NCBI GenBank assembly: GCA_017542245.1
Contig: JAFXXN010000160.1
Location: 1 to 64,000 of the forward strand
Length of the DNA stretch: 64,000 nucleotides
DNA from: Lachnospiraceae bacterium
Lineage (GTDB): Bacteria; Bacillota; Clostridia; Lachnospirales; Lachnospiraceae
Direction of reading: 5' to 3'
Position numbers and translations under genes: made by a program. This document shows, piece after piece, positions 4,940 through 52,509 of the stretch (the stretch's first letter is position 1; every line of letters begins with the position of its first letter). Under the pieces are notes generated by a model, which was not told where the DNA came from, did no database searches, and worked only from the letters and a program-made list of their open reading frames with translations.

Positions 4940-4949
4940 ACATTTCGTT

Positions 4950-5077
4950 GTGAAAACAGCATGACCGAAGACAGCAGGTACTTATGGTGTAAGCTCCTTG
5001 CGACGCCTGCCGAGGGATTGATGTAATTCTTATGATATTTACAGCTTTCCTGATTTTGGTCGGGGAAGCTTTTTTAA
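4950..5077 (+). ncRNA. L10 leader (ribosomal protein autoregulatory RNA)
   Basis: The segment GAAGACAGCAGGTAC ... GCCTGCCGAGGGATTG matches the conserved core of the Firmicute L10 leader, which binds the L10(L12)4 complex and represses the operon when L10 is in excess. It ends in an attenuator-like terminator: AGCTTTCC (5043-5050) pairs with GGGAAGCT (5063-5070), followed by six T residues. The leader makes the upstream in-frame start at 5032 implausible as a protein start. Confidence 0.85.
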
Positions 5078-5118
5078 TAGCTTCCTTCTTAAGCAAAATG
5101 GTAAAGGAGGAAAACAAA

Positions 5119-46784: not shown

Positions 46785-46813
46785 TTGACAAATCCTTTGG
46801 TTAGCGATATACT
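46785..46813 (+). promoter_or_regulatory. Promoter of the aromatic amino-acid operon
   Basis: TTGACA (46785-46790), 17-base spacer, TATACT (46808-46813). A perfect palindrome, ACTCACT/AGTGAGT (46811-46837), covers the end of the -10 and the expected transcription start, so it may be a protein-binding site as well. Confidence 0.75.
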
Positions 46814-46849
46814 CACTCCATGATTTATTAGTGAGTAACGGAGATTAAA

Positions 46850-46918
46850 ATGAAAGAGATATTTACGAATGCATCATTTTATTACTTTTATTACTACTTT
46901 ACCTCTATACAGAAGTAA
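46850..46918 (+). CDS. Phe/Tyr-rich leader peptide (22 aa)
   Basis: Encodes MKEIFTNASFYYFYYYFTSI then QK-stop: nine aromatic codons, eight of them consecutive (FYYFYYYF). It has a GGAGA site at 46840-46844 and stands between the operon promoter and an intrinsic terminator. The bases ATGCATCA (46869-46876), just before the aromatic run, pair with TGATGCAT (46929-46936) after the stop, enclosing the control codons like a 1:2 pause hairpin. This is the layout of a classical ribosome-stalling attenuator responding to Phe and Tyr shortage, matching the downstream DAHP synthase and prephenate dehydrogenase genes. Confidence 0.85.
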   Translation: MKEIFTNASFYYFYYYFTSIQK

Positions 46919-46964
46919 GGTTAGTTTGTGATGCATAAGTCGTGAATAGGGTTCATGGATTTAG

Positions 46965-46996
46965 AGCGGAGCAGGTTGACCTTGCTCCGCTTTTTT
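46965..46996 (+). terminator. Attenuator terminator before aroF
   Basis: AGCGGAGCA (46965-46973) pairs with TGCTCCGCT (46983-46991), followed by TTTTT. 46 bases after the leader-peptide stop and about 100 before aroF. Confidence 0.9.
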
Positions 46997-47061
46997 ACTT
47001 GAAGTTACTATCTGCTGAGTATATGTGTGAAAACCTGGGAAAAATGGAACCCGGAGGTCTG

Positions 47062-47079
47062 ATGGTGGGTAGTTCTTAG
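47062..47079 (+). other. Five-codon upstream ORF with strong ribosome site
   Basis: CCGGAGG at 47051-47057 is followed by ATG GTG GGT AGT TCT TAG (MVGSS). aroF starts 18 bases after its stop and has only a weak site (AAGAAAGTAG). Possible translational coupling; it may also be chance. Confidence 0.35.
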
Positions 47080-47097
47080 TAAAGAAAGTAGTTTAAG

Positions 47098-48100
47098 ATG
47101 ATAGTAGTATTAAGGAAGGATGCAAACAAGGCAAAACAGGATCAGCTGATCGAATGGCTTAAAGGTATGGGACTGGGTATTCATGTATCGGTCGGAGAAT
47201 ATCAGACGATCCTCGGTCTTATCGGAGATACCAGTAAGGTTGATATGGATCTTATCGGAAGTCTTGATATTGTAGATTCGGTTAAGAGAGTAACAGATAC
47301 TTTCAAATGTGTAAACAGACAGTTCCATCCGGATGATACCGTTGTAAATGTAGGAGATGTAAAGATTGGCGGCGGGAATTTTGCTATGATAGCAGGTCCC
47401 TGCTCTGTTGAATCTGAGGAACAGATAGTATTTGTAGCAAAAGCTGTTAAGGAGGCCGGCGCCAATCTGCTGAGAGGCGGTGCATTTAAGCCCCGTACCT
47501 CACCCTATGATTTTCAGGGACTTAAAGGTGAAGGTATCGAACTTTTAAAGATTGCCCGCAAAGAGACCGGACTTCCTATAGTTACCGAGATAATGAGCGT
47601 TTCTGACCTTCCTTTGTTTGAAGACGTGGATGTATTACAGGTCGGAGCAAGAAATATGCAGAATTTTGACCTTCTAAAGGAACTTGGAAGGATTGGGAAA
47701 CCCATTCTATTAAAGAGGGGATTGGCAAATACTTTAAAAGAACTGCTGATGAGCGCAGAATATATTATGGCAAGCGGTAATGAACAGGTAATCCTCTGTG
47801 AAAGAGGTATACGTACTTACAGCGATTATATGAGAAATACTCTTGACCTTTCTGCAGTTCCAATGCTTCATGAACTTTCTCATCTGCCGGTAATAGTAGA
47901 TCCGAGTCATGCAACCGGTATAGCTAGAATGGTTCCGCCCATGGCACTTTCGGCAGCTGCATGCGGCGCAGACGGTCTTATTATCGAAGTCCAATGATCC
48001 GATACATGCTCTTTGTGACGGAGCTCAGTCTCTTCGTCCGGAAGAATATGCGGCACTTGTTAAGAAAGTAAATGCTGTAAGGGAAGCACTTAAGGCTTAA
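47098..48100 (+). pseudogene. aroF: DAHP synthase gene with frameshift near the 3' end
   Basis: First enzyme of the shikimate pathway (type I-beta, with an N-terminal ferredoxin-like regulatory domain, residues 1-70). Metal ligands Cys102 (GPCSVES), His271 (DPSHATG) and Glu297 (IIEVQ) are present. The frame stops at 47995-47997 after 299 residues. The normal C-terminus continues in the +1 frame: NDPIHALCDGAQSLRPEEYA to KALKA-like end VNAVREALKA, stop 48098-48100. Restoring two bases (CACAAT for CAAT after GTC) gives a normal 334-residue enzyme. The truncated form lacks the fourth metal ligand (Asp in CDGAQ). Sequencing error, real mutation and recoding are all open. Confidence 0.85.
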
Positions 48101-48151
48101 GAATTTATTGAAAAATCCTAAGAAATGCGGTTTAAGAAAAGGAGATTTAAA

Positions 48152-48982
48152 ATGATAGCAGGAATAGTCGGACTCGGACTCATCGGAGGGTCATTTGCAA
48201 AAGCATATCATGCTGCAGGACATACGGTACTTGCCAAGGAACTTGACAAACAGGTACTGAGTTTTGCCAGACTCAGTGATGATGTGGATGGTGAACTAAC
48301 CAAAGAGAACATAAAGGAATGTGATATTATCCTTATATGTGTTTATCCGCAGGCGGTAATCGATTTTCTTAATGAAATGGGACCGTTCATAGGCAAACAT
48401 CCTGTTGTTATTGACTGCTGCGGAACAAAGAGAGTTCCGATGTTCGAAGGTGAGAAAATTGCTGAAAAGTACGGATTTCTCTATATAGGCGGGCATCCCA
48501 TGGCAGGAACCCAATTCTCAGGATTTAAATATTCAAAGAAAGAAATGTTTAAAGGGGCACCTATGGTTATCGTGCCGCCTGAATATGATGATATTGTACT
48601 GCTTGAAAAGGTTAAGGAGCTTTTATCTCCTGCAGGATTTAGGAAAATAACGGTGACAACCGCCGAAAAACATGATGAGATGATAGCATTTACCTCTCAG
48701 CTTGCACACATAGTTTCCTCAGCTTATATAAAAAGTCCCACAGCACTTGCTCACAGAGGTTTTTCTGCAGGAAGTTACAGGGATATGACAAGAGTTGCAT
48801 GGTTAAATCCCCAGATGTGGGCAGAATTGTTTTTGGATAACAGTGATTATCTGATAAAGGAGATAGGACTGCTTATAGATAATCTTACTGACTATAAAGA
48901 AGCTATAGAAAAAAGGGATCGTGAAGGTCTGATCAAGCTGCTTGATGAAGGCAGGAAGCGAAAAGAGGAGGTAGATGGCTGA
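48152..48982 (+). CDS. tyrA: Prephenate dehydrogenase
   Basis: Oxidatively decarboxylates prephenate to 4-hydroxyphenylpyruvate for tyrosine. 276 residues: NAD-binding domain with GIVGLGLIGGSFAKA (residues 3-17), then the helical dimerisation domain with GGHPMAGTQFSG, whose His is the conserved catalytic residue, and FTSQLAHIVSSAYI. No ACT regulatory domain, so feedback control must lie elsewhere. The start at 48152 follows AAAAGGAG. The stop overlaps the aroB start (TGATG), so the two are translationally coupled. Confidence 0.93.
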   Translation: MIAGIVGLGLIGGSFAKAYHAAGHTVLAKELDKQVLSFARLSDDVDGELTKENIKECDIILICVYPQAVIDFLNEMGPFIGKHPVVIDCCGTKRVPMFEGEKIAEKYGFLYIGGHPMAGTQFSGFKYSKKEMFKGAPMVIVPPEYDDIVLLEKVKELLSPAGFRKITVTTAEKHDEMIAFTSQLAHIVSSAYIKSPTALAHRGFSAGSYRDMTRVAWLNPQMWAELFLDNSDYLIKEIGLLIDNLTDYKEAIEKRDREGLIKLLDEGRKRKEEVDG

Positions 48983-50106
48983 TGGAAAGGATTTCCGTTA
49001 ACGCATCGGTCGATTATGAAGTTGTAATAGGCAAAGGCCTCATAAGTGAGGCCGGAGCTTATATTGCTGCCGCACTCGAAGGCGAAAGCTATGATCCGGA
49101 AAACCATGAGTTAAAAGACAATGCAGGGACAGGTACCAAGACAGCAGCAGGAAAAACCGCAGTCATAGTTTCCGATGATAATGTATTTCCTCTTTATGGT
49201 GAAATAATAAGAAAAAGTCTGATCGAAGAAGGATTTAAGACATTGGATTTTTATTTTCCGCATGGAGAGAAAAGTAAAAATCTTGCCGTATACGGGGAAC
49301 TTCTGGAGTTTATGTGCGACAATCATGTGAGACGTTCGGATCTGATAGTTGCATTAGGAGGCGGTGTGGTTGGAGATCTTGCCGGATTTGCGGCCGCGAC
49401 ATATCAGCGCGGGATTGACTTTGTGCAGATACCTACGACATTGCTTGCGGCAGTAGATTCATCTGTGGGCGGAAAGACTGCGGTCGATCTTACGAACGGG
49501 AAAAATCAGGTTGGCGCCTTTTATCAGCCAAGGCTTGTTCTATGTGATACAGATACTTTAAAAACTCTTCCTGATGAGGAGTATGCCTGTGGATGTGGAG
49601 AGATTATTAAATATGCCATGCTGGAAAGCGAAGAATTTTTTGATGAAATTCTTGATAAACAGGTAAGAGAACAGTATGAACATGTGATCGCCACATGTGT
49701 AAAAATGAAAAAAGCATATGTTGAAAATGATGAATTCGACAGGGGCTTAAGGATGAAACTTAACCTTGGCCATACAATAGGCCATGCTGTAGAGGCATGC
49801 AGCGGTTACACCATACTTCACGGACAAGCTGTGGCCATGGGAATGGCAGCTGTGACAAGAGCGGCAAACGGAATGGGACTGTGCTCTAAGGAAACACTTG
49901 CAAGACTGTTGGAAATCCTCGATGTATATAAACTTCCTTCAGTAATAGGTTATGATGCAGAGGATCTTTTTGAGATTATAAAGGTTGATAAAAAGAATTC
50001 GGGAACAGTTACGAATCTTATAGTTCCGACAAGTATTGGAAATTGTAAGATAATGAAGATACCTACGGAAAAACTTATTGGCTGGATAGAAGAAGGATGT
50101 ATATGA
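48982..50106 (+). CDS. aroB: 3-dehydroquinate synthase
   Basis: Second shikimate enzyme, converting DAHP to 3-dehydroquinate with NAD and a metal ion. 374 residues. Typical motifs: FPHGEKSKNL, LIVALGGGVVGDLAGFAAAT, QIPTTLLAAVDSSVGGKTAVDL, CGCGEIIKYAM (metal ligand Glu) and LNLGHTIGHAVEA with HGQAVAMGMA (metal ligand His residues). There is an extra 20-residue loop after residue 30 (SYDPENHELKDNAGTGTKTA), which is not usual but lies at the surface of the N-terminal domain. It overlaps tyrA by one base and aroA by four. Confidence 0.95.
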   Translation: MERISVNASVDYEVVIGKGLISEAGAYIAAALEGESYDPENHELKDNAGTGTKTAAGKTAVIVSDDNVFPLYGEIIRKSLIEEGFKTLDFYFPHGEKSKNLAVYGELLEFMCDNHVRRSDLIVALGGGVVGDLAGFAAATYQRGIDFVQIPTTLLAAVDSSVGGKTAVDLTNGKNQVGAFYQPRLVLCDTDTLKTLPDEEYACGCGEIIKYAMLESEEFFDEILDKQVREQYEHVIATCVKMKKAYVENDEFDRGLRMKLNLGHTIGHAVEACSGYTILHGQAVAMGMAAVTRAANGMGLCSKETLARLLEILDVYKLPSVIGYDAEDLFEIIKVDKKNSGTVTNLIVPTSIGNCKIMKIPTEKLIGWIEEGCI

Positions 50107-51392
50107 ATAAAACTATAAACCCTGGCAGCAGATCCGGGATTATTCGGGTTCCGGCTTCAAAATCCTGGGCACACAGGATGATGATCACAGCGGCCTTATC
50201 GGAAAATAGAAGCAGAATATACTGTGATGGTATATCAAAAGACATTGCTGCTACAGCTGCATGTCTGAATGCTATGGGCGCAAAAATAGAGTTCCCCTCA
50301 GAAGAAAAGAATTCTGTGATTGAGATAGAACCTGTTAACAGAACTATTATAGCTGAAAAAGACCATCTTAATGAATTTCATGACCTTTACTGTGGTGAGA
50401 GTGGATCAACTTTGAGATTTCTGATACCTGTGGTAGGAGTTCTGGGTATCAGGGCTGTTTTTCATATGGAGGGAAGGCTTTCGGAAAGACCGCTGGGAAC
50501 ATTGGTCGATGAACTTTTAAAACATGGTATGTGTATCGAGCAGAAGGGAACTCTTCTGTATTGCAGCGGGAAACTCATGCCAGGAGAATTTTATCTTCCG
50601 GGGAATATTTCCTCTCAGTATATTTCAGGACTCTTAATGGCCCTGCCTTTAGCCTCGGGCAAAAGCAGCCTCACCGTAACCGGAAAAGTTGAGTCAGGGG
50701 ATTATATTGAGATGACGGAGAGGGCGGTTAAAGACGCAGGAGCAATATTTGACAAAAATAAGTATACATATATTATAGAAGGCAATCAAAAATATAAGGT
50801 AAAAGACAATTTGTCGGTCGAAAAGGACTGGTCTTCGGCGGCATTTCCGCTGTGTATGGGTGCATTTTCCGAAGAAGGCGTAACAGTATACGGGCTTAAT
50901 CCCGATTCGGGACAGGGTGACAAAGAAATAATCAACATATTGAAGGATTTCGGTGCAGAAGTAATTATAAAAGATATTGAGTCTGAAATAGGGAAAGAAT
51001 GTGCGATAACGGTAAGAAAAGGAGAGCTAAAAGGCCAAATCATAGATGCATCCGGAATACCTGATCTTGTACCTGTCATAAGTGCAGTTGCTTCGGGAGC
51101 AGAAGGGGAGACCAGGATAATACATGCCGAAAGATTACGTTTTAAGGAATCGGACAGACTTATGACAACGTCTTCTATGTTAAGGAGCTTAGGCGCTGAT
51201 ATAGAGGAAACGGAAGATGGGCTGAAAATCCGGGGGAAAGAAAAGCTGATCGGCGGAACGGCGAATTCCTTTAATGATCACAGAATAGCTATGTCAGCAG
51301 CTGTTGCAGCCGGAATATGTACGGAAAAGGTAACCATACTCGATGCCGAATGTACGGATAAATCATTTCCGGGCTTTTGGGATATCTTTTAA
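50103..51392 (+). CDS. aroA: 5-enolpyruvylshikimate-3-phosphate synthase
   Basis: Adds the enolpyruvyl group of PEP to shikimate 3-phosphate. 429 residues with the two-domain EPSP fold. Conserved sites: GIIRVPASKSWAHRMM (Lys of the substrate site), CGESGSTLRFLIPV, ISSQYISGLLMALPLA, DWSSAAFPL, DASGIPDLVPVISAVA, ERLRFKESDRL, FNDHRIAMSAAVA and the final DKSFPGFW. The start at 50103 uses an ATGA overlap with aroB and AGAAGG ahead; the ATG at 50097 is an in-frame alternative. Confidence 0.95.
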   Translation: MNKTINPGSRSGIIRVPASKSWAHRMMITAALSENRSRIYCDGISKDIAATAACLNAMGAKIEFPSEEKNSVIEIEPVNRTIIAEKDHLNEFHDLYCGESGSTLRFLIPVVGVLGIRAVFHMEGRLSERPLGTLVDELLKHGMCIEQKGTLLYCSGKLMPGEFYLPGNISSQYISGLLMALPLASGKSSLTVTGKVESGDYIEMTERAVKDAGAIFDKNKYTYIIEGNQKYKVKDNLSVEKDWSSAAFPLCMGAFSEEGVTVYGLNPDSGQGDKEIINILKDFGAEVIIKDIESEIGKECAITVRKGELKGQIIDASGIPDLVPVISAVASGAEGETRIIHAERLRFKESDRLMTTSSMLRSLGADIEETEDGLKIRGKEKLIGGTANSFNDHRIAMSAAVAAGICTEKVTILDAECTDKSFPGFWDIF

Positions 51393-51432
51393 GTGAAAGA
51401 ATGCATGAAGATTTGAAAAGGAGAAGAAAAGT

Positions 51433-52509
51433 ATGAGCAGCAGTTACGGGAAAAATATAAAAGTGACTATTTTCGGGCAGTCTCATTCAAAGGCAATAGG
51501 AATGACCTTAGAGGGTATACCGGGCGGAAAGAAGATCGATCTTGAAAAACTGTATGCTTTTCTTTCAAGACGCGCTCCGGGAAAGAATGCATTTTCAACA
51601 CCGAGAAAGGAAGCGGATATTCCTGAATTCTTGAGCGGAATGGTAGGGGACATTACATGCGGGACTCCAATTACTGCCGCTATCATGAATACCAATACCA
51701 GATCACAGGATTATGATATATTAAAGGATATACCCCGTCCGGGACATGCGGATTATACGGGTTATATCAAATACGGAGAGAATAGGGATTATACGGGCGG
51801 CGGACATTTTTCGGGAAGGCTTACGGCTCCGCTTTGTATAGCGGGAGGCATTGCACTACAGCTGCTTGAAGAAAGTGGTATAAAAATATATGCACATATT
51901 GCTTCTATAGGAAGTATTAAAGATGATGCTGATTTTTTAAAAACTGTACAAGATAATACATCTTTTTCGATGGAAAGAAAAGATTTTCCTACTGTATCAG
52001 ATGAAAGCGGCAGGAAAATGATGGAATTTATTGCTGAAAAGAAAGCCGAAGGCGATTCTGTAGGGGGAATCGTAGAGTGTGTTATACTCGGCGTTCCGGC
52101 CGGAATCGGAGACCCTATGTTTGACGGGGTTGAGAACCGTATCGCCCAGGCTGTATTCGGTATTCCTGCAGTAAAGGGAATTGAATTCGGCAACGGATTT
52201 GAGGCAGCATGGCTTACAGGCAGCGAAAACAACGATGCTTTCTGTGTTAAAGATGGGAAAATAGTAACTGAAACAAATAACTGCGGAGGAATACTGGGCG
52301 GCATATCTGACGGTATGCCGATAGTTTTTAGGGCAGCTTTTAAACCTACTCCATCCATAGCAAAAGAGCAGAAAAGCGTGCGCCTTGACACTATGGAGGA
52401 AACCACACTTGTGGTCCCGGGAAGACATGATCCATGCATTGTTCCGCGTGCCGTACCGGTTGTTGAAGCAGTGGCAGCTATTGCTCTTTATGATATGCTT
52501 AACGACTGA
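51433..52509 (+). CDS. aroC: Chorismate synthase
   Basis: FMN-dependent enzyme making chorismate from EPSP, last step of the common aromatic pathway. 358 residues. Signatures: TIFGQSHSKAIGMTLEGIPGG, SRRAPGKNAFSTPRKE, RPGHADYTGYIKYG, GGHFSGRLTAPLCIAGGIA, ETNNCGGILGGISDGMPI and the final GRHDPCIVPRAVPVVEA. Good AAAGGAG site 40 bases after aroA. Last gene of the operon; aroD, aroE, aroK and the prephenate dehydratase gene are not in the window. No clear terminator follows. Confidence 0.96.
   Translation: MSSSYGKNIKVTIFGQSHSKAIGMTLEGIPGGKKIDLEKLYAFLSRRAPGKNAFSTPRKEADIPEFLSGMVGDITCGTPITAAIMNTNTRSQDYDILKDIPRPGHADYTGYIKYGENRDYTGGGHFSGRLTAPLCIAGGIALQLLEESGIKIYAHIASIGSIKDDADFLKTVQDNTSFSMERKDFPTVSDESGRKMMEFIAEKKAEGDSVGGIVECVILGVPAGIGDPMFDGVENRIAQAVFGIPAVKGIEFGNGFEAAWLTGSENNDAFCVKDGKIVTETNNCGGILGGISDGMPIVFRAAFKPTPSIAKEQKSVRLDTMEETTLVVPGRHDPCIVPRAVPVVEAVAAIALYDMLND

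Follow-up and report, generated by a model that had tools for sequence, protein, structure and literature searches.

Does the short open reading frame (ORF) rich in Phe and Tyr codons that precedes the aroF-tyrA-aroB-aroA-aroC operon of a Lachnospiraceae bacterium sense the supply of these amino acids? The ORF lies in a stretch of 64,000 nucleotides, hereafter the window (assembly GCA_017542245.1, contig JAFXXN010000160.1, positions 1 to 64,000; G000:C34:1-64000 in our own numbering, in which G and L numbers denote genomes and loci). The assembly of its genome, G000, amounts to 4.7 Mb and is 97% complete and 8.6% contaminated. We propose that the element is a ribosome-mediated, leader-peptide transcription attenuator sensing Phe and Tyr, and we put the probability of this reading at nearly nine in ten. 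The locus appears to combine the hallmarks of such an attenuator, namely an ORF with its ribosome site, a run of codons for the end products, a terminator, a covarying antiterminator and folding that depends on where the ribosome stalls.

In the proposed mechanism, RNA polymerase would make the leader and a ribosome would begin translating the 22-codon ORF. Given ample Phe-tRNA and Tyr-tRNA, this ribosome would reach the stop codon and cover the abutting region 2 (46919-46935), whereupon the terminator (46964-46996) would form and transcription would stop. Were charged Phe- or Tyr-tRNA short, the ribosome would stall on codons 10-17 and break the hairpin that holds region 2, which consists of the base 46869-46876/46929-46936 and of aromatic codons paired around the stop codon. 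The freed region 2 would then pair with the 5' arm of the terminator, and the aro operon would be transcribed. The mixed run would act as an OR sensor for two amino acids. The scaffold itself would be a portable module, with Leu and Ile copies before acyl-CoA ligases in the genus and Phe, Trp and Tyr versions elsewhere in the family.

Anatomy and folding of the leader

All features lie on the plus strand. A sigma-70-type promoter, read directly and by consensus match only (TTGACA at 46785-46790, a 17-nt spacer and TATACT at 46808-46813), would place the start of the leader transcript near 46820. The ribosome site GGAG (46840-46843), also read directly, precedes the leader ORF MKEIFTNASFYYFYYYFTSIQK (46850-46918), whose 22 codons run from ATG at 46850 to the TAA stop at 46916-46918. 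Its codons 10-17 (46877-46900) form the sensing run Phe-Tyr-Tyr-Phe-Tyr-Tyr-Tyr-Phe (FYYFYYYF); both the ORF and the run are supported by relatives as well as by direct reading. Region 1 (46869-46876), the 5' base of the pause or anti-antiterminator hairpin, makes an 8-bp pairing with exactly 46929-46936 (ATGCATCA/TGATGCAT). Region 2, GGTTAGTTTGTGATGCA (46919-46935), is the 5' strand of the antiterminator and begins one base past the leader stop codon. Region 3 (46964-46975) is the 5' arm of the terminator, the 3' strand of the antiterminator being 46965-46981, and region 4 (46981-46996) comprises the terminator 3' arm, to 46992, and the T6 tract 46991-46996. The terminator stem (46964-46992) has a folding energy of -20.0 kcal/mol, and its T tract ends 101 nt upstream of the operon. 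The first operon gene, aroF (47098-47997), encodes a DAHP synthase (TIGR01361 above cut-off) and has a frame broken near its 3' end; the closely spaced tyrA, aroB, aroA and aroC follow on the same strand (48125-52509). An earlier note on this DNA, made from the letters alone, had listed these parts from promoter to operon, and all of them are found where it put them.

The RNA from 46820 to 47000 folds at z -4.9, none of 200 shuffles being equally stable. The pause hairpin described in the earlier note keeps its 8-bp base and proves to be larger, as folding predicts further pairs between the last aromatic codons and the bases surrounding the leader stop. As for the antiterminator, which that note had failed to find by eye, it does exist: region 2 pairs with AGCGGAGCAGGTTGACC (46965-46981, the terminator 5' arm and loop) at 14 of 17 positions. 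Region 2 also pairs backwards, its 3' part with region 1 and the stop-codon bases with the last aromatic codons, so that strand 2 is common to the 1:2 hairpin, which holds the sensing codons, and to the 2:3 antiterminator. Strand 3 is common to the antiterminator and the terminator, i.e. these pairings are exclusive.

Among 17 aligned leaders, 95.4% of the antiterminator cells are paired, compared with a mean of 90.8 for shuffled and 38-46% for slid versions, and 93.1% of the terminator cells are paired. The antiterminator covariation score is 0.215 against 0.127 in shuffles, with none of 500 as high, and three pairs are changed on both sides (shuffled mean 1.7). A permutation test could be made on the 27 of 81 loci in which both anchors are present. 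Their 23 distinct segment pairs have 309 of 391 cells paired, and 1000 permutations gave a mean of 287 and a maximum of 299. The relatedness of the sequences inflates both the covariation and the permutation tests. The telling changes are GGTT/AACC, GGTC/GACC, GGAT/ATCC and GAGT/ACTC. In L002, L003 and L006 the leader stops 12 nt later and the RNA sequence of region 2 is still kept, which indicates that the RNA itself is conserved there. The 1:2 hairpin was judged by per-sequence folding, in which the stretch from the ORF to region 2 is more stable than in shuffled sequences (z averages -3.2 and is below -2 in 56 of 71 loci). A count of this hairpin on an alignment was discarded; its hand-made pairing string did not match the register of the alignment, as 57.6% of cells paired and a slide of +2 did better, and the count supports nothing.

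The effect of the ribosome was modelled in 71 loci by masking 27 nt as its footprint in an RNA that ends before the terminator 3' arm; five leaders without a terminator were left out, as were L119, L023 and L024. Mean antiterminator pairing is 0.28 in the free RNA; it is 0.56-0.57 when the A site holds an aromatic codon and 0.24 when the ribosome has come to the stop codon. The corresponding values with region 2 shuffled are 0.23, 0.28 and 0.22. Pairing in the stalled state exceeds that of the free RNA by more than 0.05 in 55 of the 71 loci and exceeds that at the stop codon in 58. For the window leader the values are 0.10 free, 0.56 stalled and 0.08 at the stop codon, in agreement with the suggestion in the earlier note that a stalled ribosome opens the pause hairpin. 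In these models, stalling on the sensing codons is predicted to free the antiterminator and arrival at the stop codon is not.

Leaders upstream of aroF homologues

A run of aromatic codons need not be a sensor. The window might harbour a constitutive intrinsic terminator behind a small ORF that arose by chance or senses nothing, with an aromatic run that simply reflects U-rich sequence. T-rich DNA readily yields TWY codons, and bare runs of at least seven F/Y codons in the own genome are no commoner than the backward pattern (11 overlapping places against 25). Two of these 11 places are the window leader, and the seven distinct others in that genome include no plausible leader. As bare runs are not rare there, it is the conserved setting and not the run alone that exceeds chance. 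We collected 110 regions upstream of aroF, of which one was too short (L042 and L007 come from the same genome). An ORF with at least six F/Y in 12 codons is present in 80 of the remaining 109, whereas the reverse strand has one in 8 of 109 and dinucleotide shuffles have one in 27 of 1090; raising the threshold to at least seven gives counts of 75, 1 and 6. Below the threshold, L056, L061, L078, L084 and L085 also resemble leaders. The named aroF loci are the best 80 of at least 589, and 66 of them have such a leader-like ORF upstream; at least two Phe and at least two Tyr occur in 59 of the 61 named leaders with a terminator. A terminator follows 74 of 79 leaders, a count that has no shuffle control. 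The chance reading is contradicted by this conservation relative to the reverse strand and shuffles, by the covariation of the antiterminator, and by the fact that the amino-acid class of the run (Leu, Ile, Phe or Trp, see below) varies with the downstream gene while the RNA core stays constant. It is already disfavoured, and we find it hardly credible.

Together with covariation and ribosome-position folding, the conservation of the Phe/Tyr run in relatives, which the earlier note had named as a check, lends strong support to its proposal of a Phe/Tyr ribosome-stalling attenuator for the aro operon. Its view that such a leader would be an oddity in a phylum of T-boxes does not hold: the majority of the close aroF homologues in our set have such a leader, and the own genome uses both leaders and T-boxes.

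In the genus, represented by 24 genomes, aroF was found in 18, with readable upstream DNA in 17 and a leader in 10 of these, the own genome included. We built a tree of 107 AroF rows (L018, L020 and L042 left out), with leader labels revised by eye (L014 and L045 removed, L022 and L043 added). The label is clustered, requiring 15 changes compared with 24.9 in shuffles, none of 500 being as low, and it also occurs in deep branches (L019, L022, L023 and L024); the bootstrap of this tree is not settled. This distribution fits an old association between leader and aroF, with losses. One six-member clade of the own genus, L012-L017, is without a leader.

Other arrangements were observed upstream of aroF. 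About 100 nt before the gene, L012-L017 have a common promoter sequence, TTGACATCAACGCGTTAAAGTG.TATAGTG, in which the shared TTGACATCAACGCGTTAAAGTG is perhaps a repressor operator, and similar TTAAAG-type palindromes precede aroF in L026, L027 and L029. L022, L023 and L024 have another type of leader, with a conserved SWG between aromatic runs (e.g. FFFSWGYFYFSAG), and share the near-identical DNA TTTTTTAGCTGGGGCT. Either these leaders read Phe, Tyr and Trp together, or they represent an RNA element. In L021, a T-box-like sequence (GGGTGGTACCGCG) is found in place of a leader. Contigs labelled Thermoguttaceae, Treponema or Lentisphaerae (L044, L060, L067, L077, L083 and L116) carry a Clostridia-like aroF, five of the six with a leader; these are either misbinned contigs or cases of transfer.

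One RNA core with different codon runs

A covariance model made from aroF leaders only (R1) was run on 116 genomes. It identified 31 places at E <= 1e-6, all in the own genus: 10 aroF leaders and 21 other elements. All 21 were read, and they comprise 12 Leu-type (e.g. MRNLSLANLLLLLLFTYKHE) and nine Ile-type leaders (e.g. MMKQSSFAIIIGIIISFIIRKYDKVGL). The expected gene lies behind 20 of them, the remaining one (L204) being cut short by a contig end. The contigs of L175 and L182 carry no more than residues 1-40 and 1-62 of the ligase, respectively. The core AAGGT...TTTGTGATGC is found with zero mismatch in 20 of the 21 elements and with one mismatch in L177, and a GC-rich hairpin and T tract, recognised by eye, follow all 21. 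In the own genome this core pattern is present three times, with one copy before each of the aroF, Leu/Phe and Ile operons; the reversed pattern, used as a control, is absent from the 24 genomes. The one-mismatch matches in G002 (two), G004 (one), G015 and G022:C91 show no leader (G004:C299 was left out). Among the seven R1 matches between 1e-6 and 0.01, L165 is an aroF leader and L166 is not a leader; three others were rejected because known elements occupy the other strand or the adjoining DNA (G010:C28 and G000:C86 were left out).

The Leu-type leaders precede an 841-aa protein that joins a xylose-isomerase-like TIM barrel to an AMP-binding ligase. Two genomes, G000 and G007, have pheA as the first gene behind the leader, ahead of the ligase gene, and the leader there holds both Phe and Leu codons. 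This link between Phe codons and pheA is only suggestive, because there are just two cases and Phe codons also occur without pheA (e.g. L172). The Ile-type leaders precede a 780-aa HTH-cupin-AMP-ligase. Among NCBIfam models it best matches that of the acyl-CoA synthetase MbcS (methylbutyryl-CoA synthetase); at 444.6 bits against a cut-off of 850, the protein is not a called MbcS member. Leu and Ile leaders are found in ten genomes only, all of the window's clade. In seven Leu leaders, CTA, CTC and TTA account for 48 of 55 Leu codons; in nine genes of the window, CTT makes up 52% and CTA 2%.

In an alignment of 23 elements, 13-15 of the 16 antiterminator positions pair in each. Masked folding of these elements predicts mean pairing of 0.85-0.90 in the stalled state for the aroF, Leu and Leu/Phe types and of 0.80 for the Ile type, with 0.00-0.21 at the stop codon. 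The segment directly before strand 2 is adapted to the Leu or Ile codon run and pairs with it in minimum-energy folds; the fold of L173 already holds the antiterminator.

A second model, made from the aroF, Leu and Ile types (R2), was run on 397 genomes of the family. At E <= 0.001 it gave 17 places in 14 genomes, 14 of the places being outside the own genome. Five are Phe/Tyr leaders before aroF (L259, L261, L263, L264 and L267; L259 is identical to L046, a training sequence of the models). Phe leaders precede prephenate dehydratase genes (pheA) at L221, L260, L262 and L265, of which L262 has a short ORF of 184 aa and L265 belongs to the own genus. They also precede phenylacetate-CoA-ligase-like genes at L266 and L269 (500-504 bits with the PaaK model, cut-off 646). 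L270 is a Trp-Trp leader before a TrpB-like gene (above cut-off), and L268 is a Tyr leader before a sodium:solute symporter (PF00474), which suggests that this transporter is a tyrosine importer. Hairpin terminators are predicted in these 13 elements, and their antiterminator duplexes, at a mean z of -1.7, are weaker than those of the own genus. In another R2 listing with 16 matches outside the own genome, of which 11 were read, only L221 and L224 are leader-like.

These versions bear on what exactly is sensed. In nascent-peptide arrest, of which TnaC is an example, the peptide would stall the ribosome in response to a free aromatic compound and not to a shortage of charged tRNA. The leader peptides are indeed hydrophobic, and some flanking residues recur (e.g. 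ASYYYFYYYFT). However, those residues sit in paired RNA, the peptides vary widely between genera while their Phe/Tyr content is kept, and the codons of the Leu, Ile and Trp versions suit the respective downstream gene, all of which makes arrest very unlikely. Alternatively, the hairpins might be bound by a ligand or a protein, as in a riboswitch or a TRAP-like or T-box-like element, and the ORF would be incidental. The leader is structured, and T-boxes are common in the genus, with matches in 24 of 24 genomes and over the cut-off in 22. Yet a scan with all Rfam 15 families found none at gathering score in the aroF leader, with weak matches only (E 3.6 or worse) and no match to the T-box RF00230, and none at E <= 0.01 in the three paralogue loci. 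As the codon runs also track gene function, we regard such an element as highly improbable.

Several observations weigh against the Phe/Tyr attenuator, and the whole case rests on sequence. Taken alone, the window's antiterminator duplex is not significant relative to shuffles (z -1.2, p 0.13), and just 34 of 73 loci reach p <= 0.05. Two of the five covariation measures are weak, as changes on both sides were matched in 21 of 500 shuffles and further pair types in 222 of 500. With region 2 of the window shuffled (four shuffles), mean pairing is 0.36 free, 0.41 stalled and 0.49 at the stop codon; because shuffles reach comparable pairing, the stalled value itself is not special there, and only the contrast between ribosome positions tells. 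Stalled pairing is below free pairing by more than 0.05 in 4 of the 71 loci and below that at the stop codon in six, and 8 of the 23 aligned elements form the antiterminator at >=0.77 even unmasked. Given the stable, GC-rich terminator hairpin, the switch probably needs kinetics. In the genus, 7 of the 17 readable members have no aroF leader. Further afield, L222, one of the 14 R2 matches outside the own genome, fits no gene, and the pheA leaders L221, L260 and L262 form their best predicted antiterminator duplex from a stretch lying 5' of region 2. Finally, the window aroF (47098-48100) is frameshifted near 47990: its conserved end HNDPIHALCDGAQSL... sits in another frame, and the frames of relatives continue open. 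This copy may be damaged or misassembled, in an assembly with 8.6% contamination.

Leaders, T-boxes and acyl-CoA ligases

If the element is indeed a Phe/Tyr attenuator, its relation to the T-box comes into question. A T-box reads uncharged tRNA directly via one specifier codon and has no ORF. The own genome has 12 T-box matches, eight of them over gathering score. Those examined precede, among others, genes that we take, by the look of their sequences, to be TyrS, PheS, TrpB-like and TrpC; the T-boxes before the PheS, TrpB-like and TrpC genes score 83-93 bits, under the gathering score of 93. This genome appears to use T-boxes for the Tyr and Phe synthetases and for trp genes, and a leader for aroF, which serves both amino acids. 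That a T-box reads one codon and a mixed leader two amino acids may be the reason for a leader at aroF.

The ligase behind the Ile leaders is a gene at which both sensors occur. Homologues at E <= 1e-100 are present in 24 of 24 genomes of the genus. An Ile leader precedes the ligase in nine genomes, whose proteins are 95-100% identical to the own one, and a T-box lies directly upstream of the orthologous ligase in nine others (73-78% identical; G002, G004, G005, G015, G016, G017, G018, G021 and G023). G009, G011, G012, G013 and G020, for which the upstream DNA or a close homologue was not available, were left out of this comparison. The Rfam model finds all nine T-boxes, with E of 4e-6 for that of G016, which is cut by the contig end, and of 1e-15 or better for the rest, and GAGTGGTACCGCGG is present in all nine; a count on the other side is that their scores of 40-90 bits are under the gathering score. 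The specifier, assigned by position, is ATC (Ile) in all eight with stem I on the contig, and in the alignments of L242 and L244 it stands in the columns of TAC of the TyrS T-box and TGG of the TrpB-like T-box. With an Ile leader and an Ile T-box at the same ligase, two unrelated sensors agree on isoleucine.

G014, the sole genome of the genus with ilvC, has neither an Ile leader nor a T-box before the ligase. Its MbcS-like ligase (L245) follows a coding region read by eye as a class I DAHP synthase.

G004 has both an aroF leader and an Ile T-box, and the Leu and Ile leaders are confined to the ten genomes of the window's clade. For these reasons, the likeliest order of events would begin with copying of the aroF-type scaffold to the Leu and Ile operons of that clade, where it then took the place of the Ile T-box. 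At the Leu ligase, no T-box was found in 11 leaderless relatives. The TrpB-like gene is a second T-box/leader case, across genera: it has a TGG T-box in the own genome and a Trp leader in G589, the proteins being 81% identical.

Leader-peptide attenuators are classically known from the trp, pheA, leu and his operons of Proteobacteria. The window leader resembles them in its short ORF of end-product codons, its competing 1:2, 2:3 and 3:4 helices and its terminator before the operon. It differs in that one RNA core serves operons of different amino acids in one genome, and in that the sensing codons are predicted to pair with a segment adjoining the strand that frees the terminator arm. The T-box RF00230 is alike in having one scaffold with a codon fitted to the gene; sister species have one upstream of the same Ile ligase, as the own genome does upstream of the TrpB-like gene. 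In the leaders, unlike in the T-box, a ribosome would read a run of codons, allowing two amino acids at once.

Control of aroF by leader peptides has been described or proposed elsewhere. The uORFC-13-1 motif, known from 24 sequences of one genus and environmental DNA, lies upstream of aroF in Acholeplasma and has a predicted uORF with at least one Phe residue and a terminator (PMC8632094). It shares with the window leader a predicted uORF with Phe codon(s) and a terminator before aroF; compared by description only, the available part of that report gives no Tyr run, antiterminator or paralogues for it (PMC8632094). In Corynebacterium glutamicum, according to the accessible part of the source, a leader peptide with Phe-Tyr-Phe precedes the DAHP synthase gene aroF (PMC4046766); this leader differs in being actinobacterial and in having three aromatic residues. 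Leader-peptide control has also been proposed, in the portion of the article at hand, for aroF of E. coli and Shewanella (PMC2659441). 'Regular' leader peptides that replace T-boxes in Firmicutes were reported in 2010, with His leaders at hisS/hisZ in bacilli (PMC2965389; also PMC4833913, both as far as the available text goes). These are likewise Firmicute leader peptides in place of a T-box, but they concern one amino acid, and the same texts describe no scaffold shared across amino acids. In a literature search for which subscription journals were largely out of reach, no account turned up of this element, of a scaffold common to several amino acids or of this family.

The window leader itself is probably a further case of known attenuators, and what its family would add is one RNA core, swapped codon runs and exchange with the T-box. 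Attenuators are usually treated as separate inventions per operon; here, one core is reused within a genome and across genera. The occurrence of a leader or a T-box with the same amino-acid specificity at the same gene makes sensor replacement directly testable.

The leaders also give amino-acid labels to ligase genes, naming candidate activating enzymes for the branched-acid and phenylacetate routes of the rumen. ilvC is over the cut-off in 1 of 24 genomes of the genus (G014), compared with 14 of 14 control genomes; none was found in G000, G006, G009, G017 and G023, all 97-100% complete (G009 has a 20-bit match). As ilvC is missing in 23 of the 24 genomes, this suggests that Ile and Leu might be made from branched acids in the genus. 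With the leuA model, no genome is over the cut-off and weaker homologues exist in 24 of 24, so that we do not claim absence of leuA. According to the part of the source available, isovalerate, 2-methylbutyrate and phenylacetate serve rumen bacteria as precursors of Leu, Ile and Phe, respectively (PMC7356843). The acyl-CoA ligases behind the Ile, Leu and Phe leaders, if they act on those acids, would be what such a route needs. It is tempting to extend this to the whole family, and on balance we lean, with some reserve, towards the following view. One leader-peptide scaffold would have spread through Lachnospiraceae as an amino-acid sensor that is programmed by its codons and read by the ribosome, a counterpart of the T-box, and would have displaced the Ile T-box in the window's clade. 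Its codon runs would label the products of the ligases (Ile for the MbcS-like ligase, Leu for the TIM-barrel/AMP-ligase fusion and Phe for the PaaK-like ligase), which would point to CoA ligation and reductive carboxylation of 2-methylbutyrate, isovalerate and phenylacetate as the source of Ile, Leu and Phe, although no search aimed at a reductive carboxylase was made.

Elsewhere in the window, an ordinary ribosomal protein L10 leader (RF00557) is found at 4947-5084.

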